64,000 bases of DNA. Origin: Bugula neritina. Its lineage: Eukaryota > Bryozoa > Gymnolaemata > Cheilostomatida > Bugulidae. Positions within the stretch are counted from its first letter, which is position 1. The number at the start of each line of letters is the position of its first letter. Position numbers and translations under genes: made by a program. The DNA is taken from positions 8,728,650-8,792,649 of the forward strand of contig OZ037772.1 in assembly GCA_964035545.1 (NCBI GenBank). The letters are read 5' to 3'. A model generated the notes under the pieces. That model saw only the letters and a list, made by a program, of their open reading frames with translations. It was not told the DNA's origin and searched no databases. Shown piece by piece: positions 672 through 48,800 of the stretch.

Positions 672-2165
672 GTATTCTTGATGCTGTCTATTATGGAAGT
701 GTCAACAATTACTTTAAAACGACAAATGTTATATAAGTAAGTATGTCTTATAAACATTTTTAACTGTTTTTGTTTCCTTTATTGACAACAAAAATAAAAA
801 AACAGAAATATTTTCAAGTAAAAACAAATACAAGGAAGTAAAAGTTTTCTGCATGACATGACGAGAAAGATAACTATAGAGCGTTAATTTATTCTGTACA
901 GTTTTGAGAGTGTGTCTATAAAGTTGAAAAGTTGTCTTCCCATGAAGCTGCTAAGTGATAAGTTACTTATATAAGTCGCATGTATAAACTAAACTATTAG
1001 ACATTTTTGTAAATAAAGAAAATAAAGTTAGTTTTACAAGAAGTAAGAGGTAAAAAAGTTATAATCATCATCAATATAACTAATTATTTAAAATTCACTA
1101 TTTGCTGGCTGAAATTTAAAAGAAGTCATGAGCAATAGGCGATGTAGTTTCATTATCTTGCTAAATTATAATACTTTCAGCTACGTCTTTGAAGAAGTTT
1201 CAATAAAGGCCCAATTAAACACTTTTCTGAATCAGAAAGGCTCCCTACGACTTCTTATGCAAGACTCCTATCAGCCTGATAACTTCATTCTAGTAGTTAA
1301 CTTTGCTATTTTCACAACTAAAAACTTTAAAGACTTTGAACACATTGCTGGCCACTCAACAGTAAGCGGGTACATGGAGGGGGCCTCTGACATATCCTTA
1401 TTTGGATTCATAAACGGTATGTTAGCGTCTCCAGAAAACAAGGCTAAGCTATGGTTAGCAGATACCTCAAACTCTTGTATTCGAGAGATAGACAGAATCA
1501 ATAACAAAACAACTACGTTTGCTGGATTTTGCTTAAATACCGAATCTGTTGATGGAAACGTGGCCATTGCGAAATTCGGTTACCCAATCAGCTTAGTTCA
1601 ACATCCAAAGCGTGTATATAGTGTATACTTTTTTGATAACATTCACATTCAGTTAAAAGTGTTAGAAAAGCAGAACGCCTCCTGGGAAGTCCGCACTGTG
1701 TATAACTGGGATAAAAGAATAAAAAGTCTGACTTTTGATGTATCTGGCTCCATATTGTATTTTGTTCTAGCCCGAGGGTTAGCTGAAATGCTGATGCATG
1801 TAGAGGAACCTAAAATAGAGCTGGTTTTTGAGACGCTTGAAGGGGATTCAGATGGTGCCCTCAACGTTTTTCGTGATGAAAGTGATCAGGCTATGGTCCG
1901 AGAGCTGAGAGATGCGGTGTTTCTGGAGAACAACCTCGGAATGCTAGTCGATCATGGAAACAGTCAAATTAGACTCATTGACTTGGAAACTTTTGAAATG
2001 TCTTCAGTTTGCCAAATGCAAACCAGCAACTACGAAGAAGTTCCAGGAAACATATCTAAATGTCGGATTGTACAACCTATAAAACTTACAAAGCGGAAAG
2101 GGGACAATTCCAAAATCTTCATTATTAATCAAAATACGATTTATGAATTTGCAATCAAAGGTAAG

Positions 2166-2221
<56 letters not shown>

Positions 2222-2295
2222 AAGGTGTGGGCCATGGTACTCTGTTCTGTGCTGATGAGGGGACAAACCCCGAAACAGCTGCTGTCCACAGATTG

Positions 2296-2352
<57 letters not shown>

Positions 2353-2653
2353 ACGTAGTACATATATACTTATATATTGGTGCTATTATCTGATAGAAAA
2401 TTCAACAACTACTGTTTCAACGCTGCCAACCACTAAGAGCTCACCGAATCATGTGATGACGAGGCAGACTGAAGACTTAACAACTCAGGTTGTACGGACA
2501 ACTCCAAAGAACCCAACTAAGTTTAGTTTAAAGTCTTTAGATTGGATTCTTTTAGCGGTGGGAATTGGGACAGCTGTTCTGATCTTGCTGATTGGCCTAT
2601 TAATGTTGTACTGGCGTGGTAAGCTAGCTTATCTAAATTACTTTTCTTTTTAG
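672..2653 (+). CDS. NHL beta-propeller type I membrane protein, copy 1 (5' end missing)
   Basis: Exons at 672-736, 1181-2160 and 2397-2653 join in frame (phases 2 and 1), giving about 433 residues in the window. The exon starts at the acceptor at 1180, not at the upstream in-frame ATG, because the neighbouring paralogue has the same phase and the matching residues YVFEEVS against YKFEDVS. The first visible exon is hydrophobic and probably ends a signal peptide whose start codon exon was not found. The large exon has NHL-like repeats: a G-Y-x-x-G turn, then IWIAD/LWLAD-type strands ending N-x-C-I-R-x-I/V-D-R, and TTFAG. The last exon is Ser/Thr-rich and then has a TM helix ([20 protein letters not shown]). 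Splicing is optional at 2618; reading through gives 12 more residues and a stop, with AATAAA 40 nt on. NHL propellers bind proteins or RNA; the ligand here is unknown. Confidence 0.78.
2168..2218. repeat. (TA)n array, left of ribozyme
   Basis: A pure 51-nt TA tract beginning 7 nt after the splice donor of the NHL gene copy 1. It equals in length the tract on the other side of the hammerhead motif. Confidence 0.95.
2238..2300 (+). ncRNA. Type I hammerhead self-cleaving ribozyme in an intron
   Basis: All parts of the catalytic core are present in order. Stem I 5' strand TCTGTG is at 2246-2251 and the CTGATGA box at 2252-2258. Stem II is GGGG/CCCC (2259-2262 and 2268-2271) with loop ACAAA. GAAA is at 2272-2275. 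Stem III is ACAG/CTGT (2275-2278 and 2282-2285) with a 3-nt loop, and the cleavage-site C is at 2286, giving a GTC triplet. The stem I 3' strand CACAGA at 2287-2292 pairs perfectly with 2246-2251. Beyond an internal loop (2243-2245 and 2293-2294) the stem continues with CTC/GAG and TA/TA. Very short stem III with an interrupted stem I is typical of hammerheads in Penelope-like elements and animal retrozymes. It lies in the sense direction of the host intron. Activity is predicted from sequence only. Confidence 0.9.
2299..2349. repeat. (TA)n array, right of ribozyme
   Basis: A pure 51-nt TA tract, the same length as 2168-2218. In RNA the two tracts are self-complementary and could extend stem I of the hammerhead into a long duplex. 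Confidence 0.95.
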
Positions 2654-3906: not shown

Positions 3907-6900
3907 ATGCAGCTAATTCTTCCAATCATCAATTTGGTGAGTCACAATTATTAGTAAAATAATTAGACTAAATTATCAAAAAAATTATATACTTATACTA
4001 TCACCTATTGTGACACTATTGATATTTGACTATTAACCTTTTAATAAAAATAACTGAGTAAAAAATGAAGAGCAAAATATTTTATTACTTTTCAGTGTCA
4101 AATGCTTTTATGCATATGAACCTATATATGAAAAATAATTAAGATGCTCTAATGTTTAAAGTTTTACAATTCTTGACCATTGACTTTGAAACACAGAATG
4201 TCAACATAACAATGTTATAAAAAACTAAAACAATTATTATTTAACAAATATTTTATAGCTGCTCTTGTGTGCCCTCTAACTGTATATTTTTTTGCAAATA
4301 AATATAGTCAGAGAAATTTATTTCAAACAGCCAATAATGTAGTTTAAACAATTTTAAGATGACATAATCATCAAATAAAAGCAAAATAATCTTGCGAATT
4401 TCTTTTTATAGCTAGACTTTGTTATGTAAAAATTATATGTCATAAATTACAACTATATATTACTTTTGGATTTCATTATTTTACAACTTTTCTCTGAAGA
4501 TCCTAAATAAGCCAAGATTAAGTTTGTCTCAAAACTCAACAGACAAGCAAATGCACAAACAAGCTGATTGTAACACAAACAAGAAGTTAATGATTGCATT
4601 CACTAAAACATAATTGAAACTCTCCTGCATGGCATCTGAATTCAAGACCTCTGGCATGAAAGCAGACAACATTTCACCATTTGCCCCAAAGAGACTATTG
4701 CGTGCAATCAATGCATATATACACAAATTTTTGTTAACATAAAAAATTTTACTGACTTTTAGGTTTTACTGCTGGTGAGATGTGCTAGTGCAGCAAGGAT
4801 TTTTAGAGATACTGCATACAGGTACTAAGTTATTATTGTCTGTAATGCTGTCCAAGATAAATGATTTAAAACTCAATAGCGAAATTTAATCTATGCCATG
4901 AATTTATATTACTATTAACATACTATTAAACAAAAGTACATAAAATAAAAATCTATATATGCTGTTATATATACTCAATAGCTATAGACTGCACAAGTTA
5001 TTAAAGCAACTTCATGTATCAGCTAACCTTTGTGCAAGCAATCCAAAAATTTAGGTTGTGAATTATTCTTGAACTGTTAGCATCAGCTTCCGTATAAAAA
5101 TTTCAATTCTTTAAAATGTTAAAAACATAGACCAGTTCTTTGTCTAAAAGCTACAGTTTCACTTTGGAAGTATTTTTATTTATGCAGGTACAAATTTGAG
5201 GACGTGTCTGTAGTAACTAAGACTACTAGCATAGTCAAAAGATTTGGTCCAATCAGCTTGCTCTTTACGGATGATTGGCTGGAAAGAAGTTTCTTTGCAG
5301 TTATTGGATTTTCCATCTACTCAACCAATGATTTCAAGAAGTTTCATTTAATAACCGGACATCCACTAGAAAGTGGCTACAAAGATGGTCACTATACCGT
5401 AGCTAGGCTGGGAAAAATTACAGGAGCCATAACTTCACCCATAAACGAGACGCATATTTGGATAGCGGATGAAACTAATCACTGCATACGAAACGTTGAC
5501 CGAATAACTCATATTATCACCACGTTTGCCGGCACATGTGAAGTGTCCGGCAATGACGATACATTTGCATCTTATGCATTGCTTACCAGTCCCATGGGTC
5601 TCGCAACTAGAAGGGAACAAACGAAGAATGTCTATTTCCACGACACGGGAGCAAACACAATTAGATATTTAAAGCCGACTCGAAAACTATGGGCCGTGGC
5701 TACGCTACATCAATGGTCTAGAAGAGCTCAAAGTTTACACGTAGATCTCTCAGGAAGTTTCCTGTATATCGTGATGCCTTCTTCGGTAGCGAGAATATCA
5801 ATTAAAGTTTCACCGATATTGGAGTATGTCTTCTTAGTAGCACGTGGGGCTTCAGACGGGCGACTGCAAGATGAGGCAAACGTTCGACAGCTCAGGGATT
5901 TGGTGTTTTTAGAAGACAATCTGTTTGTGGTAACAGATACGGAGAGTAGCAATCTGCGTTTAGTTGATCTGAAGTCTAGAACCATGTCCACCATATGCTG
6001 GTCCCAGGTACAGAGACATATCGAGAAGAACGGGAAAATTAGTAGCTGCAGAGTGATTACACCGACATATCTCTCTATCGGATTAAATAAGCTTGACATA
6101 TACATAGTGGGTCCTCGGTCTATTTACAAACTTAAAATAAAAGGTAAGCCTGTGGTCTGTAAGTCTGGTAAGTAGGTTTTTATGTCTGTGATTTTGGTTT
6201 GGAAATAGTAATACAATTTGGTTACCCAATCAACTTGGCTCAACATTTGAAACATTTATATAGTGTATACTTTTCTCATAACATTCACGTCCAGTTAAAA
6301 GTATAATATTTATTAGAGTATATTATAGTAATGGTCGTTCAATCTTTGCTGTAAAAGCATGACCTTTTATATTAATTTTATTTAGATTTAGATGCCACTA
6401 CTACCACTCGTATGTCACCCACTACGCCAATAACCACTAAAAGAACAACACCAACCACCACATCTACAACTACAACAACACAAAAGACTACAACAACAAA
6501 AACTACCAAAAAGACCACTCCTCTAACTCAAGAATATACGTCCTCATGGCAATATGTGGTGATATCTCTAGCTGTCTTTATTTTCTCATTCTCAATAGTA
6601 GGAATAATGCTTGTATGCATGTCAAGTAAGTAAATCATTCTCCAGAATAATATATATAATTGTAGTGATGAATTTACTCAATAGTCTCTGTGGTGTAATG
6701 GTAGCACACTTGCTTGCAAGCCAGAGGACTCGGGTTCGATTCCCAGTGGTGGCAACTAATTTACAAGCTATTTCGGCCTTTAGTAAAGTTTAGTTGTAGT
6801 ACTCCGAGGGAGTTGAGTGGCCAGGGAAGCCTGATGACTGAAGAAGTAGTAGAGAGGCCAGTGGAGTTGAGAGAACTGGGTAGGATGTAGCAATGAGTTT

Positions 6901-15712: not shown

Positions 15713-16082
15713 AGGGTTATAGTTCAGTGACTCTAACTCCTTTATAAGCTACTATGAGTTCATTAATTTAGCAATATTTAGGTAGTTTTTAATTTTTTTG
15801 ACCTGCATGATTTAATTCGTTTTAAATAATAAATCTTTGGAAACAAAATTATATTTTGATCTTCTAGCTTTATTCTGTGTATATTTACATATTACATTAT
15901 TTATAGTTGTAAGCAATCATAGTGGCAAATTTATCTGATGAGTGCACATCGTTTTTGTGTACGAAACTACTAGTAATAAATGCCATTATATTAATCAAAT
16001 CTCATTTTATTTCTTCTAATGTTTATGCTCTAGATTTATTTCTATAGAGCACTCTAGTAACGTTTTATAAAACACTCATTTT

Positions 16083-16086
<4 letters not shown>

Positions 16087-42841: not shown

Positions 42842-45800
42842 CAATAGTAATAGTAATAATAGTAGTAGTAGCAGTAGTGATATATACCTATAGAGATAGT
42901 ATATACCTATAGAGATAGTATATACCCGCGATTGCGTTGTATTGCAGGTTTATCAAGATGGCAGAAGATAACATGACTTCTGTAACATCACTACAAAGTG
43001 AACAACACAGAAACAAGGAACTGTCCAATCAGCTTGCAGAGAAAGAGTCCCTCCTCCACCAGACTGGCCAATCATTGGCTGAGAAGCAGAAGTAAGTGAC
43101 ACTCGCGTAGTAGTACAACTGTTTGGAGGTTTATTCATATTTATTTCTTCTCTTCTTCTCTTTATTTTGCAACATAGTTGTTATTATGTGTAGGATCTTC
43201 AACTCCATCCAACATATACTCTTTTGTGTCTACAAACAAAAATTTTCTCCACTTGCACTCTGAACTTTTGACTTCAAACTATTATTAGTTGTAATAAGCA
43301 TCTAGATTCTAGCATATTCATGTAATAGTCAGTGGGCTTTTGTTGTGTCCTGTCTTGATTTTTTTAAACATTTGTCCAAGTTAGTTTTCTTGAAACAAAA
43401 TTTTGTTCTCAGTAGTGATTCAATATTTTGAGCTACTGGTTTTAGCAACTATTTACAGTATTGACAACTAGAACTAAGTTGTATGGTGTCCTAATATGGT
43501 TTTATCCAACTGGAATAAATGTCCAGCTGAATGTGTATTTGAATAATTGTAATTTTCACAGCAACCTTTGCTGCTGTTTACAATGTTGTCATTCTAGTCT
43601 GTTTTATATCATTTTAATATAATCAGTTTCCTGATTGACTGTTACTGTGTGTACTGTTTTCTGATTGGCTGTTTCTTTCGTTCAACAGTTTCATAGCAGA
43701 ACACGAAGCACAGTTTGAGAACGTCTCCAAGATGTCCCACCAGCAGGAGCTGCTAGCTGATAGAATCAGACACTACGAGGCACAAATACAGGTTCACTCA
43801 TCTCTTCTAAACTCTTTCTAGAAATACTATGGCTCTAGTCTAGCTTTTAGTATCAGTTATCTAGTCATGTTCTATTTCTAATGTGTTCTCTGAAGTCTTG
43901 GAATTAGACGTGTTGTGTAGTTTACTATTATCGATCAGTTATAATTGCAAATGTTGGAACTCTGGTTACCCGCCCGCAAATAAACCTCAACTTTAGCAGA
44001 TTACATAGTTCATGTTTGATATATAAATTGCCTGCTTTGTTAGTCGATTCCTTTTACATCGATTGTGGTTAATTCTAAAAAAAATATTTGATTTGTGTAT
44101 AGGACTATCGTCGACAATCATATATGCTGTACTATCAAATTTATTTCAATACTTGGGTGTGTAGTGAATACATCTCTTGTGGTTCATCTTGAATAAACTG
44201 ATTTGATTGGTAAAGAGATCAACAGTCAACCAATGGTATATGCTTTTCTATAAACTGTTAAATAATTACTCATAAAAATATATGTCCAACATCTAAACTA
44301 CTTAGGCCGTGACTTTACACTTATGTCGTGCTTTTGTGTTCACTAACTATTTTTGTTCTGTTTGTCTTTAACCTGCCATAACACTGTTGGTATTTATCTT
44401 AGTGTATCCTTAGAGTTGTCTTCTCTTGTTACTCTAGTTGCCTGGAATATTGTAGATTATGGGTACTCTACAGAGGGAGCTCCACTCTAGCCAGGAGACA
44501 GTGCGAGCATTGACTGCTCAGAACTCTGAACTCAGAGGCATGATTGTACAGCGAGGTAATATTAGGATGTGGTGTTAGTTTCAGAATTGTCTTCTCCTGT
44601 AGTTCATGTGGTTATGACTCACAAAACTGCTCGATGTTAGCTTCAGTGGTTTCATCAGCTTTTCTTCTTACCTTTTTTGAATTTGTTATTGATATTATAA
44701 TATTATATAGTTATTTAAATGTATTTTGATATATAGTAGTAAAATGCTAGTGTGTTGTGTAATATTGTATTGTGTCATTCTATTTTATATTTGGTTCCAT
44801 ATTAATAAACTACTTTTCATTTTAGTATGCAAGTCCTCCGTATTTCATCATTAAAAAATATCATGTCAGGGTATTTTAATTAGTTTGTATTATCTGATTG
44901 TATAATTTTATGATGTACAAGTATTTTTTATAAAATGCAGTATATAATATGCATGTATAGTATTAGTATAGCGTAGTATAGTATATAGTATTAGTATAGT
45001 GTACTATATATAGTAAGAACAATTTTTATACTGTATAGTACATGAAGGTGAATTATCACATCACAGTTACCCTCTTTCCATTATCTCATTCGCCAATATT
45101 TGTTGAATTAGCCAATCACACACAGAGATACATTTACACTGTTATATCATAGACATGTATTCTCTATAGGCACCTCAGTTCAGTCTACGGCCAACGAGCC
45201 AACTGACAATACAGACACCGAGAATACCTTCTCAGCCAATGCTGCCGACAGCACTGATTCAGTCACTCCGACGACCTCCACGTCCGCTGATCAGTCGTCT
45301 GTGGTAAGTTGAGATGTCTGTCTGTGTTTCTAAGGCACTTGAAGGGCATCAACTTTTTTATATATTCATATATTTTTCTTATATATTCATATATATATTC
45401 TCGAATATTCATAGATTCAACAACTAAGCACGGCCATACAGCAACTGGAAGCCGAGAAAGCTCACCTGGAGAACAGGTGTGAGCAGGTGACAGCTGAAAA
45501 CAACAGACTGTCCAATCAGCTTCTCTCTCAGTCTGAACTTCCTGCAGAGTCTAACAGAATCACCAGACAGCAGTACGAGGCCCTACAGCATGCCCTCGAT
45601 AGCTTACAGGTATTCTAGTTCTTAGTCTATATATTATATATATATAGGCTATACTATAATTATACTATGCTATACTCTATACTGTACATATACTACTCTA
45701 TACTCTATACTACTCTATACTATATACTACTCTATACTATATACCACTCTATACTATGTACTACTCTATACTATATACTACTCTATACTATGTACTACTC

Positions 45801-48800
45801 TGTACTATATACTACTATATACTATATACTACTATATACTCTCTATTCTATATACTACTCTATACTATATACTACTCTATACTATATACTATACTATATA
45901 CTACTATATACTATACTCTATACTATATACTACTCTATACTATATACTACTCTATACTATATACTCTATACTACTCTATACTATATACTATACTATGTTC
46001 TATACTATATATTACTCTATACTATATACTACGCTATACTATATACTACTCTATACTATATACTTCTCTATACTATATACTATACCATACTCTATACTAC
46101 TATATACTACTCTATACTATACTATATACTACTCTATACTATATACTACTCTGTACTATACTCTATACTATATACTACTCTATACTATACTCTATACTCT
46201 ATACTACTCTATACTATATACTACTCTATACTATATACTATATACTATACTCTATACTATATACTATACTCTATACTATATACTATACCATACTCTATAC
46301 TCTATACTATATACTACTCTATACTATACTATATACTACTCTATACTATATACTACTCTGTACTATACTCTATACTATATACTACTCTATACTATATACT
46401 ACTCTATACTATATACTACTCTATACTATATACTATACTCTATACTATATACTACTCTATACTATATACTACTCTATACTCTATACTACTCTATACTATA
46501 TACTACTCTATACTATATACTATATACTATATACTACTATATACTATATACTACTCTATACTATATACTACTCTATACTATACTATATACTACTCTATAC
46601 TCTATACTACTCTATACTATACTATACTATATACTACTCTACTCTATACTATATACTACTATATACTATATACTACTCTATACTATATACTACTCTATAC
46701 TATATACTACTCTATACTATACTATATACTACTCTATACTATATACTACTCTGTACTATACTATATACTACTCTGTACTATACTCTATACTATATACTAC
46801 TCTATACTATACTCTATACTCTATACTACTCTATACTATATACTACTCTATACTATATACTATACTCTATACTATATACTATACTCTATACTATATACTA
46901 TACCATACTCTATACTCTATACTATATACTACTCTATACTATACTATATACTACTCTATACTATACTATATACTACTCTATACTATATACTACTCTGTAC
47001 TATACTCTATACTATATACTACTCTATACTCTATACTATACTATACTATATACTACTCTACTCTATACTATATACTACTATATACTATATACTACTCTGT
47101 ACTATATACTACTCTATACTCTATACTACTCTATACTATACTATACTATATACTACTCTACTCTATACTATATACTACTATATACTATATACTACTCTAT
47201 ACTATATACTACTCTATACTATATACTACTCTATACTATATACTACTCTATACTCTATACTACTCTATACTATATACTACTCTACTCTATACTATATACT
47301 ACTATATACTACTCTATACTATATACTACTCTATACTCTATACTATATACTACTCTATCTCTATACTATATACTACTCTATACTATATACTATACCATAC
47401 TCTATACTACTATATACTACTCTACTCTATACTATATACTACTATATACTACTCTATACTATATACTACACTATACTATATACTACTCTATACTACTAGG
47501 ACAAGTACACGGTAGTCATGAGGTCTAAGGCAGAACTCCTGGACAGATCAGAGATACTGGAACACGAGAACATGCAGCTGGAGGCCGAGTCTGAGACTAT
47601 CAACGAGTACATTGCTCTCTACCACCAGCAGAGATCTCTCATGAAGAGTAGGGCTGAAGACAAAGACAGGTTAGTCGAGAGATCAATGCTGTCTTGTTCC
47701 TAGGCAACCAGTCAGTTGGTTTATTCAATACTAGTCTATCAACTTTTAGGATTAACAGTGTGGCTGTCGAAGAATCTTTTGTATATTATATTGTAAAAAG
47801 AATTGAACTATGCTCAGTGTTAATGTGTTTTGCTAAGTTCCGGGGTATCATTTTTGCTAACTTGTCACAAAAGTTCTATTTTTTTTGAAGATTTATTTCA
47901 TGATGGTGTACTTTTGAATTGTTTGGCGGTGTTTTTTGGTGTGATGCATAAATGCAATAACGACAGACACCAGTGAAAATTAAAACAAAAATCCCGGCCC
48001 AGTTTACTATGTGTACTGCATTAGTAGTTCTATGCCAATTGTCCTGGTTTATTATACAATTTTTCATTTGTACACTCAGTGTACTCTACCAGTAGTTCTA
48101 AACATAATACAACTATCTATGTATACTCAGCTCACTGCTAAGCCCTTCATAAACTGCCATCGTCTCTAATAAAGTAAATTTACACTCCGTGTGCTTCGGG
48201 TATATTTCCCGTACTTCAGGTATATTTCCCGTACTTCAGGTACATCCAGCAACTAGCAGATGAAAGAGAGAAAGTATCGGTGAAACTCTCTGAGTTACAG
48301 AGTCTAGTAGTGAGACTATTACAGGAGAGACAGTATCTTCACTCCTATACTAATGGTAGCAGCGTTCCTATTGGCTCTCCTCAACACAATACTAGCCAAC
48401 CTAATCCTTCTCAATCCATGGATGGTAAGTCCCTCCGCTATTTTGTTCTGTGGACACATGTTTGTGATGTTGTGAAGCCCATCACTAAAGCGTTGGTTTC
48501 AACAATACTTGGCAGTTGTTTGTCCAGTCAAAAGACTCAGAGATTGGTTCAATAGAAATGTTATCCGTGTGTTTGAAAAGGTTGATGCAAAAAATAAAAG
48601 AACAGTCTTTCATAACTATAAACTGATTATTCATAGATAAACAACTATTAGATGTGATAATGCTGTTTCCTATATGAATAAATTAAACTTTGTAGTCTCT
48701 CTCTCAATAATAATTATCTTTTGCCTAATTTCTGCACTTCCTGTACAGGGAACACAACTTCTAAGAGCTAAAAGCAAACCCTTCTATTAACACAGATAAT

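Follow-up and report, generated by a model that had tools for sequence, protein, structure and literature searches.

A hammerhead ribozyme in an intron of Bugula neritina as part of a retrozyme family with junctions in (TA)n, and its possible mobilisation by Penelope-like elements

On sequence grounds, the hammerhead motif found in the window (the whole 64,000-nucleotide stretch of Bugula neritina DNA analysed here) belongs to the remaining 3' part of a non-LTR retrozyme of the metazoan type, a non-autonomous element with one type I hammerhead per unit. Such retrozymes are an already known kind of element and the single window copy is ordinary by itself. The informative part is the junction map, in which hundreds of similar copies have one main 3' end placed in (TA)n. 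In this genome we observed the repeated unit, its copies, their fixed 3' end, the (TA)n flanks, the scattered 5' ends, and Penelope-like elements (PLEs) with the same landing sites. We consider it probable that a PLE-like enzyme primes internally, at nicked (TA)n, on uncut or circular retrozyme RNA, where we infer the cleavage, the circles and the enzyme. The features around the insertion are the following:

2161..2396, + strand: host intron carrying the insertion (GT...AG, phase 1; 236 nt), with splice sites predicted from the sequence and the joined frame
2168..2217, no strand: (TA)25 target microsatellite on the 5' side of the element, read in the window sequence
2218..2301, + strand: 5'-truncated retrozyme copy, the last 84 nt of the 272-nt unit, with 100% identity to the genomic unit over 84 nt
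2240..2297, + strand: type I hammerhead ribozyme, from the letters and pairing, predicted cut 2286/2287
2295..2301, + strand: GAGGTAT, the fixed 3' end, 15 nt past the cut (456 genomic ends) and presumably the start of reverse transcription (RT)
2299..2348, no strand: (TA)n on the 3' side, whose first bases overlap the element end, read in the window sequence

The hammerhead motif

Stem I is formed by 2246-2251 and 2287-2292 (6 bp), followed by an internal loop and the outer pairs CTC/GAG (2240-2242 with 2295-2297). Stem II is GGGG/CCCC (4 bp, 5-nt loop) and stem III is ACAG/CUGU (4 bp, with the 3-nt loop CUG), while the core comprises CTGATGA at 2252-2258, GAAA at 2272-2275, and C2286 directly before the predicted cut. 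When stems II and III were required to have at least 4 bp and stem I at least 5 bp, this strict descriptor matched a single place in the 64 kb when both strands were searched, and gave 0 matches in 200 random 64-kb sequences built with the dinucleotide transitions of the window. Letters, pairing, and descriptor agree with the complete hammerhead, having all core bases and three stems, that an earlier note had placed here. Its assignment to type I, with retrozyme or Penelope affinity, was also borne out.

Two of the checks that had been proposed for the motif gave opposite answers. The covariance search was negative, with no Rfam hammerhead at the gathering threshold in the window and none at E<=10 in positions 1800-2800 (1001 nt). 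With a 96-nt query, RAGATH-1-hammerhead (19.1 bits, gathering 56.3) and Hammerhead_3 (14.9 bits, gathering 48.5) were found in the right register, both sub-threshold. The folding energy of the isolated motif is ordinary when compared with shuffles (z 0.20), and the hammerhead fold of 63 nt lies 2.4 kcal/mol above the minimum-energy fold. On the other hand, the search of the genome for further copies recovered the 47-nt core in 85 exact copies (38 forward, 47 reverse) and in 462 copies at up to 3 mismatches, the exact ones included, with 0 for the reversed-pattern control in both cases. Since it belongs to such a family, the motif is a real feature. On the identity of the element, the genome copies outweigh the Rfam negative, as far as comparison of sequences can tell, and they say nothing on cleavage; the self-cleavage of the hammerhead is something we infer.

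The retrozyme family

The genome searched has 215.8 Mb in 295 contigs, the window being on contig C8, and exact cores are present on every one of contigs C1-C9. BLAST of the genome revealed at least 41 matches at 96-100% identity, with 40 of the 771 first-look candidates scored. Full copies are composed of head-to-tail noncoding units of 272 nt, and the core recurs about every 272 nt in many places, which places the family within the tandem units of ~150-450 bp and dispersed copies that define a metazoan non-LTR retrozyme. One genomic unit has a GC content of 45.6% and, when tripled, a longest open frame of 49 codons, being thus noncoding and below 50% GC. No open frame for RT and GIY-YIG is present in the 272-nt unit, which contains no long frame, and no LTR was noticed in the retrozyme loci read.

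Folded as a circle, the unit reaches -103.5 kcal/mol, whereas its shuffles average -68.1 (z -7.1; none of the 200 shuffles as low). In the single fold of the single unit considered, this lowest-energy circle keeps stem II alone, corresponding to 4 of the 14 hammerhead pairs, and is devoid of stems I and III. Two retrozyme subfamilies could be recognised, in which a hairpin upstream of the ribozyme is altered on both arms with the pairing kept. Among 38 units, 23 have one form of the hairpin, 4 have the other, 6 are variants, and 5 were unmatched by the search expression. As the two-arm change is one event, it gives weak evidence for a selected hairpin. Among 72 ribozyme copies, 14 of 63 changes fall on nine conserved core positions, that is 1.6 per position versus 1.3 elsewhere. 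We thus rejected core conservation among the inserted copies, since these nine positions changed no less than the rest. The inserted copies decay regardless of the ribozyme, with no sign of selection on its core.

The host gene and the intron insertion

The predicted GT at 2161 and AG at 2396 fuse the upstream frame (from 1113) in frame to an exon at 2397-2618, which encodes a Thr-rich stalk and a hydrophobic helix. Nearly all of the 236-nt intron corresponds to TA repeats and the insertion. These predicted splice sites and the joined frame support the sense orientation within an intron of a membrane-protein gene, as was initially suggested. The NHL name given to this gene stands less well: the host exon has no Pfam match, and NHL was found at 21.7 bits (cut-off 20) only in a neighbouring similar ORF at 5123-6163. 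A frame at 5123-6175 (+) resembles the insertion-bearing gene and has a weak NHL match, and by eye the two look like tandem paralogues. A relative protein from a metagenome is 88% identical to the host protein, and the start of its intron, of which ~48 nt are comparable, has a different composition. The insertion therefore looks lineage-specific, consistent with a recent event, as judged on those ~48 nt.

In all likelihood the window copy is a passive insertion in the intron, although its ribozyme, lying on the sense strand, may cut that intron; with one hammerhead, this copy alone cannot give a circle. The earlier note regarded the motif as possibly solitary or domesticated, a view overturned by the genome, where hundreds of copies of the 272-nt element exist and the window retains its 3'-most 84 nt. 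Because this copy is 5'-truncated, no retrozyme body lies beside the hammerhead.

Two other readings of the window motif were considered. A chance match to the hammerhead core would be in agreement with the lack of an Rfam match at threshold, with the ordinary folding energy, and with a core that is not spared in the retrozyme copies compared. We give it almost no credence, given that the strict descriptor matched nothing in the 200 random windows and that the family is tandemly organised with one hammerhead per unit. A domesticated intronic hammerhead regulating this gene would account for a complete ribozyme lying in sense orientation within an intron, and is nevertheless highly improbable: the same core is found in 84 other copies and, within the ~48 nt judged, the different intron start of the metagenome relative (88% protein identity) makes the insertion look lineage-specific. 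A domesticated intronic hammerhead should occupy a single conserved locus, and hundreds of copies were found. On this copy number (85 exact and 462 near cores), a solitary or domesticated ribozyme was rejected.

Junctions of the retrozyme copies

From loci L001-L068, 80 segments were parsed as elements, of which 56 were distinct after duplicate removal. These loci had been picked by ribozyme or unit similarity, hence patterns were additionally counted genome-wide. Of the 56 elements, 49 terminate 15 nt beyond the ribozyme cut, at GAG(G/A)TAT or a sequence close to it; the other 7 comprise 3 that end with GATTGA before TATATA and 4 singletons. Genome-wide, CTGTCCACAGATTGAG(R)TAT followed by (AT)n was found in 456 places at up to 3 mismatches (control 0), and the CTGTCCACAGATTGAG stretch running on into the next unit, which represents unit-unit junctions, in 134 (control 0). 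Ends at the other (TA)n-like site of the unit, TTTTAAATAT, were absent, with 2 matches versus 3 in the control. On these counts, RT priming wherever the unit offers ATAT was rejected for the AAATAT site.

A TA run of at least 12 nt lies within 60 nt of the 5' end in 44 of the 56 elements and within 60 nt of the 3' end in 52; 42 elements have both, the background being ~2.5% per side. The median TA run is 47.5 on the 3' side versus 10.5 on the 5' side. As the 3' runs are the longer ones, the template may have carried a (UA)n tail of its own, derived from read-through transcription.

Elements vary from 62 to 1375 nt, with up to 5 units among those read, and their 5' ends scatter all round the unit. 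Only one of the 56 has its 5' end within 2 nt of the cut, and this is a rearranged start (L003). The cut site is intact in the copies. Since copies with the canonical end read through it, the template would have been uncut or re-ligated there. Furthermore, half of the elements (28 of 56 exceed 287 nt) are longer than a full unit, for which a closed circle or an uncut multimer suffices and a cut linear monomer does not. Run-off cDNA from ribozyme-cut linear monomers was rejected, as copies usually end beyond the cut and just that one 5' end lies near it.

A circular template predicts that the units within one element are alike. Unit identity is on average 0.982 within elements (9 elements with at least two full units) and 0.968 between elements (687 pairs), and 54 of 5000 label permutations reach the within-element value. 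In L057, a single element joins units of the two retrozyme subfamilies in a chimeric array. A single circle cannot give such a mixture, which points to template switching or a mixed multimer at this locus. The junctions are explained equally well by circles and by uncut multimers.

Penelope-like elements in the same genome

PLEs were searched with a 38-residue motif. It was found in 50 places at E<=1 in the genome, all but three spanning the full motif. In the family named here PLE-1, the frame has an RVT_1 match of 42.5 bits and 1311 database relatives at E<=1e-5, and its protein is 96% identical to a public-collection protein (P0002). Its loci are L071 (892-2589, -), L073, L070, and L072, with a 777-codon open frame in L073. 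In a homologue with 45% identity Pfam recognises a GIY-YIG domain, and the C-terminus of PLE-1 aligns to this domain. In PLE-1 itself there was no Pfam GIY-YIG match, and the genome-wide search with this model returned a single match, presumably SLX1 from its motif. Pfam GIY-YIG was thus rejected as a PLE finder, as it gave one match in the genome and missed PLE-1. A PDB sequence search with the PLE-1 protein returned weak RT matches alone. The frame with RT and GIY-YIG (via the homologue), the tandem copies, and the tail make PLE-1 Penelope-like.

The 3' end of PLE-1, TTTATAAT followed by (AT)n, occurs 49 times in the genome when up to 2 mismatches are allowed (control 0). An alternative 3' end lies ~35 nt later, also in (TA)n (L070, L071, and L072), and in L070 and L072 the 3' end occurs in inverted copies. 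Upstream of the 3' ends there is a CTGAAGA...GAAA motif with no Rfam match, which we take to be hammerhead-like. A second family, PLE-2, is represented in the window by two features:

15849..16086, + strand: PLE-2 3' end, ending in (TA)n, from sequence comparison with the genome copies
15929..15981, + strand: second hammerhead, type I, within PLE-2, from Rfam and a descriptor, predicted cut after 15975

This hammerhead was found by a descriptor with a stem III of 3 bp. In the 96-nt search it matches RF00163 with 26.3 bits (E 5.8e-5; gathering of 34 not reached) and outscores the retrozyme hammerhead at 2240-2297. With 40 of 227 candidates scored, the PLE-2 3' element has at least 44 genome matches. 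This family, too, ends in (TA)n at two points, one in the window copy and L076-L079, and the other in L070 and, in reverse orientation, in L079. Frames upstream in L076 and L078 look like a PLE endonuclease; Pfam found nothing in the one PLE-2 upstream frame examined. Both PLE-1 and PLE-2 stop in (TA)n at either of two points, downstream of a motif that is a hammerhead or resembles one. Hammerhead PLEs are co-resident with the retrozyme, by Rfam (below gathering) and descriptor in PLE-2, and by a motif presumably hammerhead-like in PLE-1.

Sequence similarity between the retrozyme and PLE-1 or PLE-2 is not beyond that of chance or shuffled sequences, and common ancestry was rejected for lack of a match above shuffled sequence. 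As no sequence is common to them, the PLEs are candidates for the mobilising enzyme, and the genome is also rich in RT genes of other kinds. At least 150 RVT_1 matches were counted, with 150 of 2124 candidates scored and all the listed ones above the cut-off. The frames are often of ~930-1105 or 1450-1580 codons, and several retroelement families look recent.

A possible route of mobilisation

In the route that we propose, tandem retrozyme copies would be transcribed, and the hammerheads would cut the RNA into units, which a host ligase would close into highly paired circles, by analogy with published work in other animals. The enzyme would be a Penelope-like RT equipped with a GIY-YIG-type endonuclease, a kind of element with at least two families in this genome; it would nick (TA)n DNA, and reverse transcription would start inside the RNA at GAG(G/A)UAU, 15 nt past the cut. 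The RT would then copy between 0.2 and 5 units of the circle, or of an uncut multimer, and could stop anywhere. We propose more tentatively, with somewhat less than even confidence, the narrower version in which the PLE enzyme nicks (TA)n, starts the cDNA at one internal point just beyond the hammerhead, and travels round an RNA template that is a closed circle. If this is true, the exact 3' ends, the random 5' ends, and the multi-unit inserts would be products of one step common to the host PLEs, and the genome would record how animal retrozymes move.

Two other mechanisms have to be weighed against this internal priming by a PLE-like enzyme. Linear read-through transcripts could carry a (UA)n tail from the source flank that pairs with a new (TA)n, so that the fixed 3' end would be inherited and not chosen by an enzyme. 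The longer TA runs on the 3' side, the one 3' end common to most copies read, and the mixed array in L057 would be in line with this. We regard this explanation as rather unlikely, since it leaves the 5'-side TA runs (at least 12 nt within 60 nt in 44 of 56) unexplained, requires a source RNA that escapes its own ribozymes, and does not anticipate the two distinct 3' ends of PLE-1, which internal starts predict. Very unlikely, in turn, is a satellite DNA that spread at the DNA level, by unequal exchange, rolling-circle DNA reinsertion, or microsatellite-driven recombination, with the hammerhead as an incidental passenger. The tandem units and the (TA)n on both flanks, which is recombination-prone, would suit it. 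Nonetheless, the copies are short (up to 5 units among those read), dispersed, and truncated on one side, which is the signature of retroposition, and they have a near-constant 3' end, with exact cores on contigs C1-C9.

Relation to known systems

Cervera and de la Pena 2020 (PMC7229834) described non-LTR retrozymes of metazoans, whose hammerheads are of type I. As presented there, they are similar to this family in having noncoding tandem units (170-400 nt in that work), each with a single type I hammerhead, and in their low GC, strong self-pairing, and co-resident PLEs. In most metazoan retrozymes described in that paper the circle permits the hammerhead fold. It mentions target duplications longer than 4 bp, and its discussion raises mobilisation by PLEs from circular RNA as a hypothesis. 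Its main text contains neither "target site" nor "microsatellite", whereas the present analysis locates both the (TA)n target and the 3' end of the family. In titles and the beginnings of abstracts of the open-licence literature we found no report of (TA)n together with retrozymes, which is weak evidence of absence, subscription papers being outside this search. Plant LTR retrozymes also have a hammerhead and spread via circular RNA (PMC4918200). Their hammerheads are of type III and located in LTRs (PMC7229834), in contrast with the type I hammerhead and the absence of any LTR seen in the window family.

According to the in vitro work on Poseidon, a PLE of Anolis carolinensis, RT starts inside the RNA and AT-rich DNA is cut; two starts give an optional tail, and ribozyme cleavage is dispensable (PMC11167929). 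As here, the ribozyme of Poseidon is upstream of the RT start and the target is AT-rich, and its two-end pattern is that of PLE-1 (PMC11167929). It differs from the retrozyme in being autonomous and protein-coding, and its RT start is stated to be not homologous to the cut DNA (PMC11167929), whereas the putative retrozyme start is a UAU abutting (TA)n. The Penelope elements of Adineta vaga, as reported in PMC3846280, also have pLTRs, an optional 31-bp tail, and inverted copies, and differ from the retrozyme in being coding and in their rotifer host. A preference of Penelope elements for simple AT-rich targets is cited in the same paper (PMC3846280).

By analogy, the present genome fits a combination of features published for PLEs, which would be joined here: the landing site, the internal 3' end past the ribozyme, and the scattered 5' ends. 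Together with the hundreds of closely similar copies and their main 3' end in (TA)n, two PLE families with the same habit provide defined enzyme, RNA, and DNA substrates for testing the mobilisation of the retrozyme.

Other observations in the window

A tRNA match (34.5 bits) was found at 6684-6754 (+). At 45649-47495 there is a 1.8-kb array of 17/34-bp repeats (CTATTCTATACTCTATA), in which all three forward frames are open.
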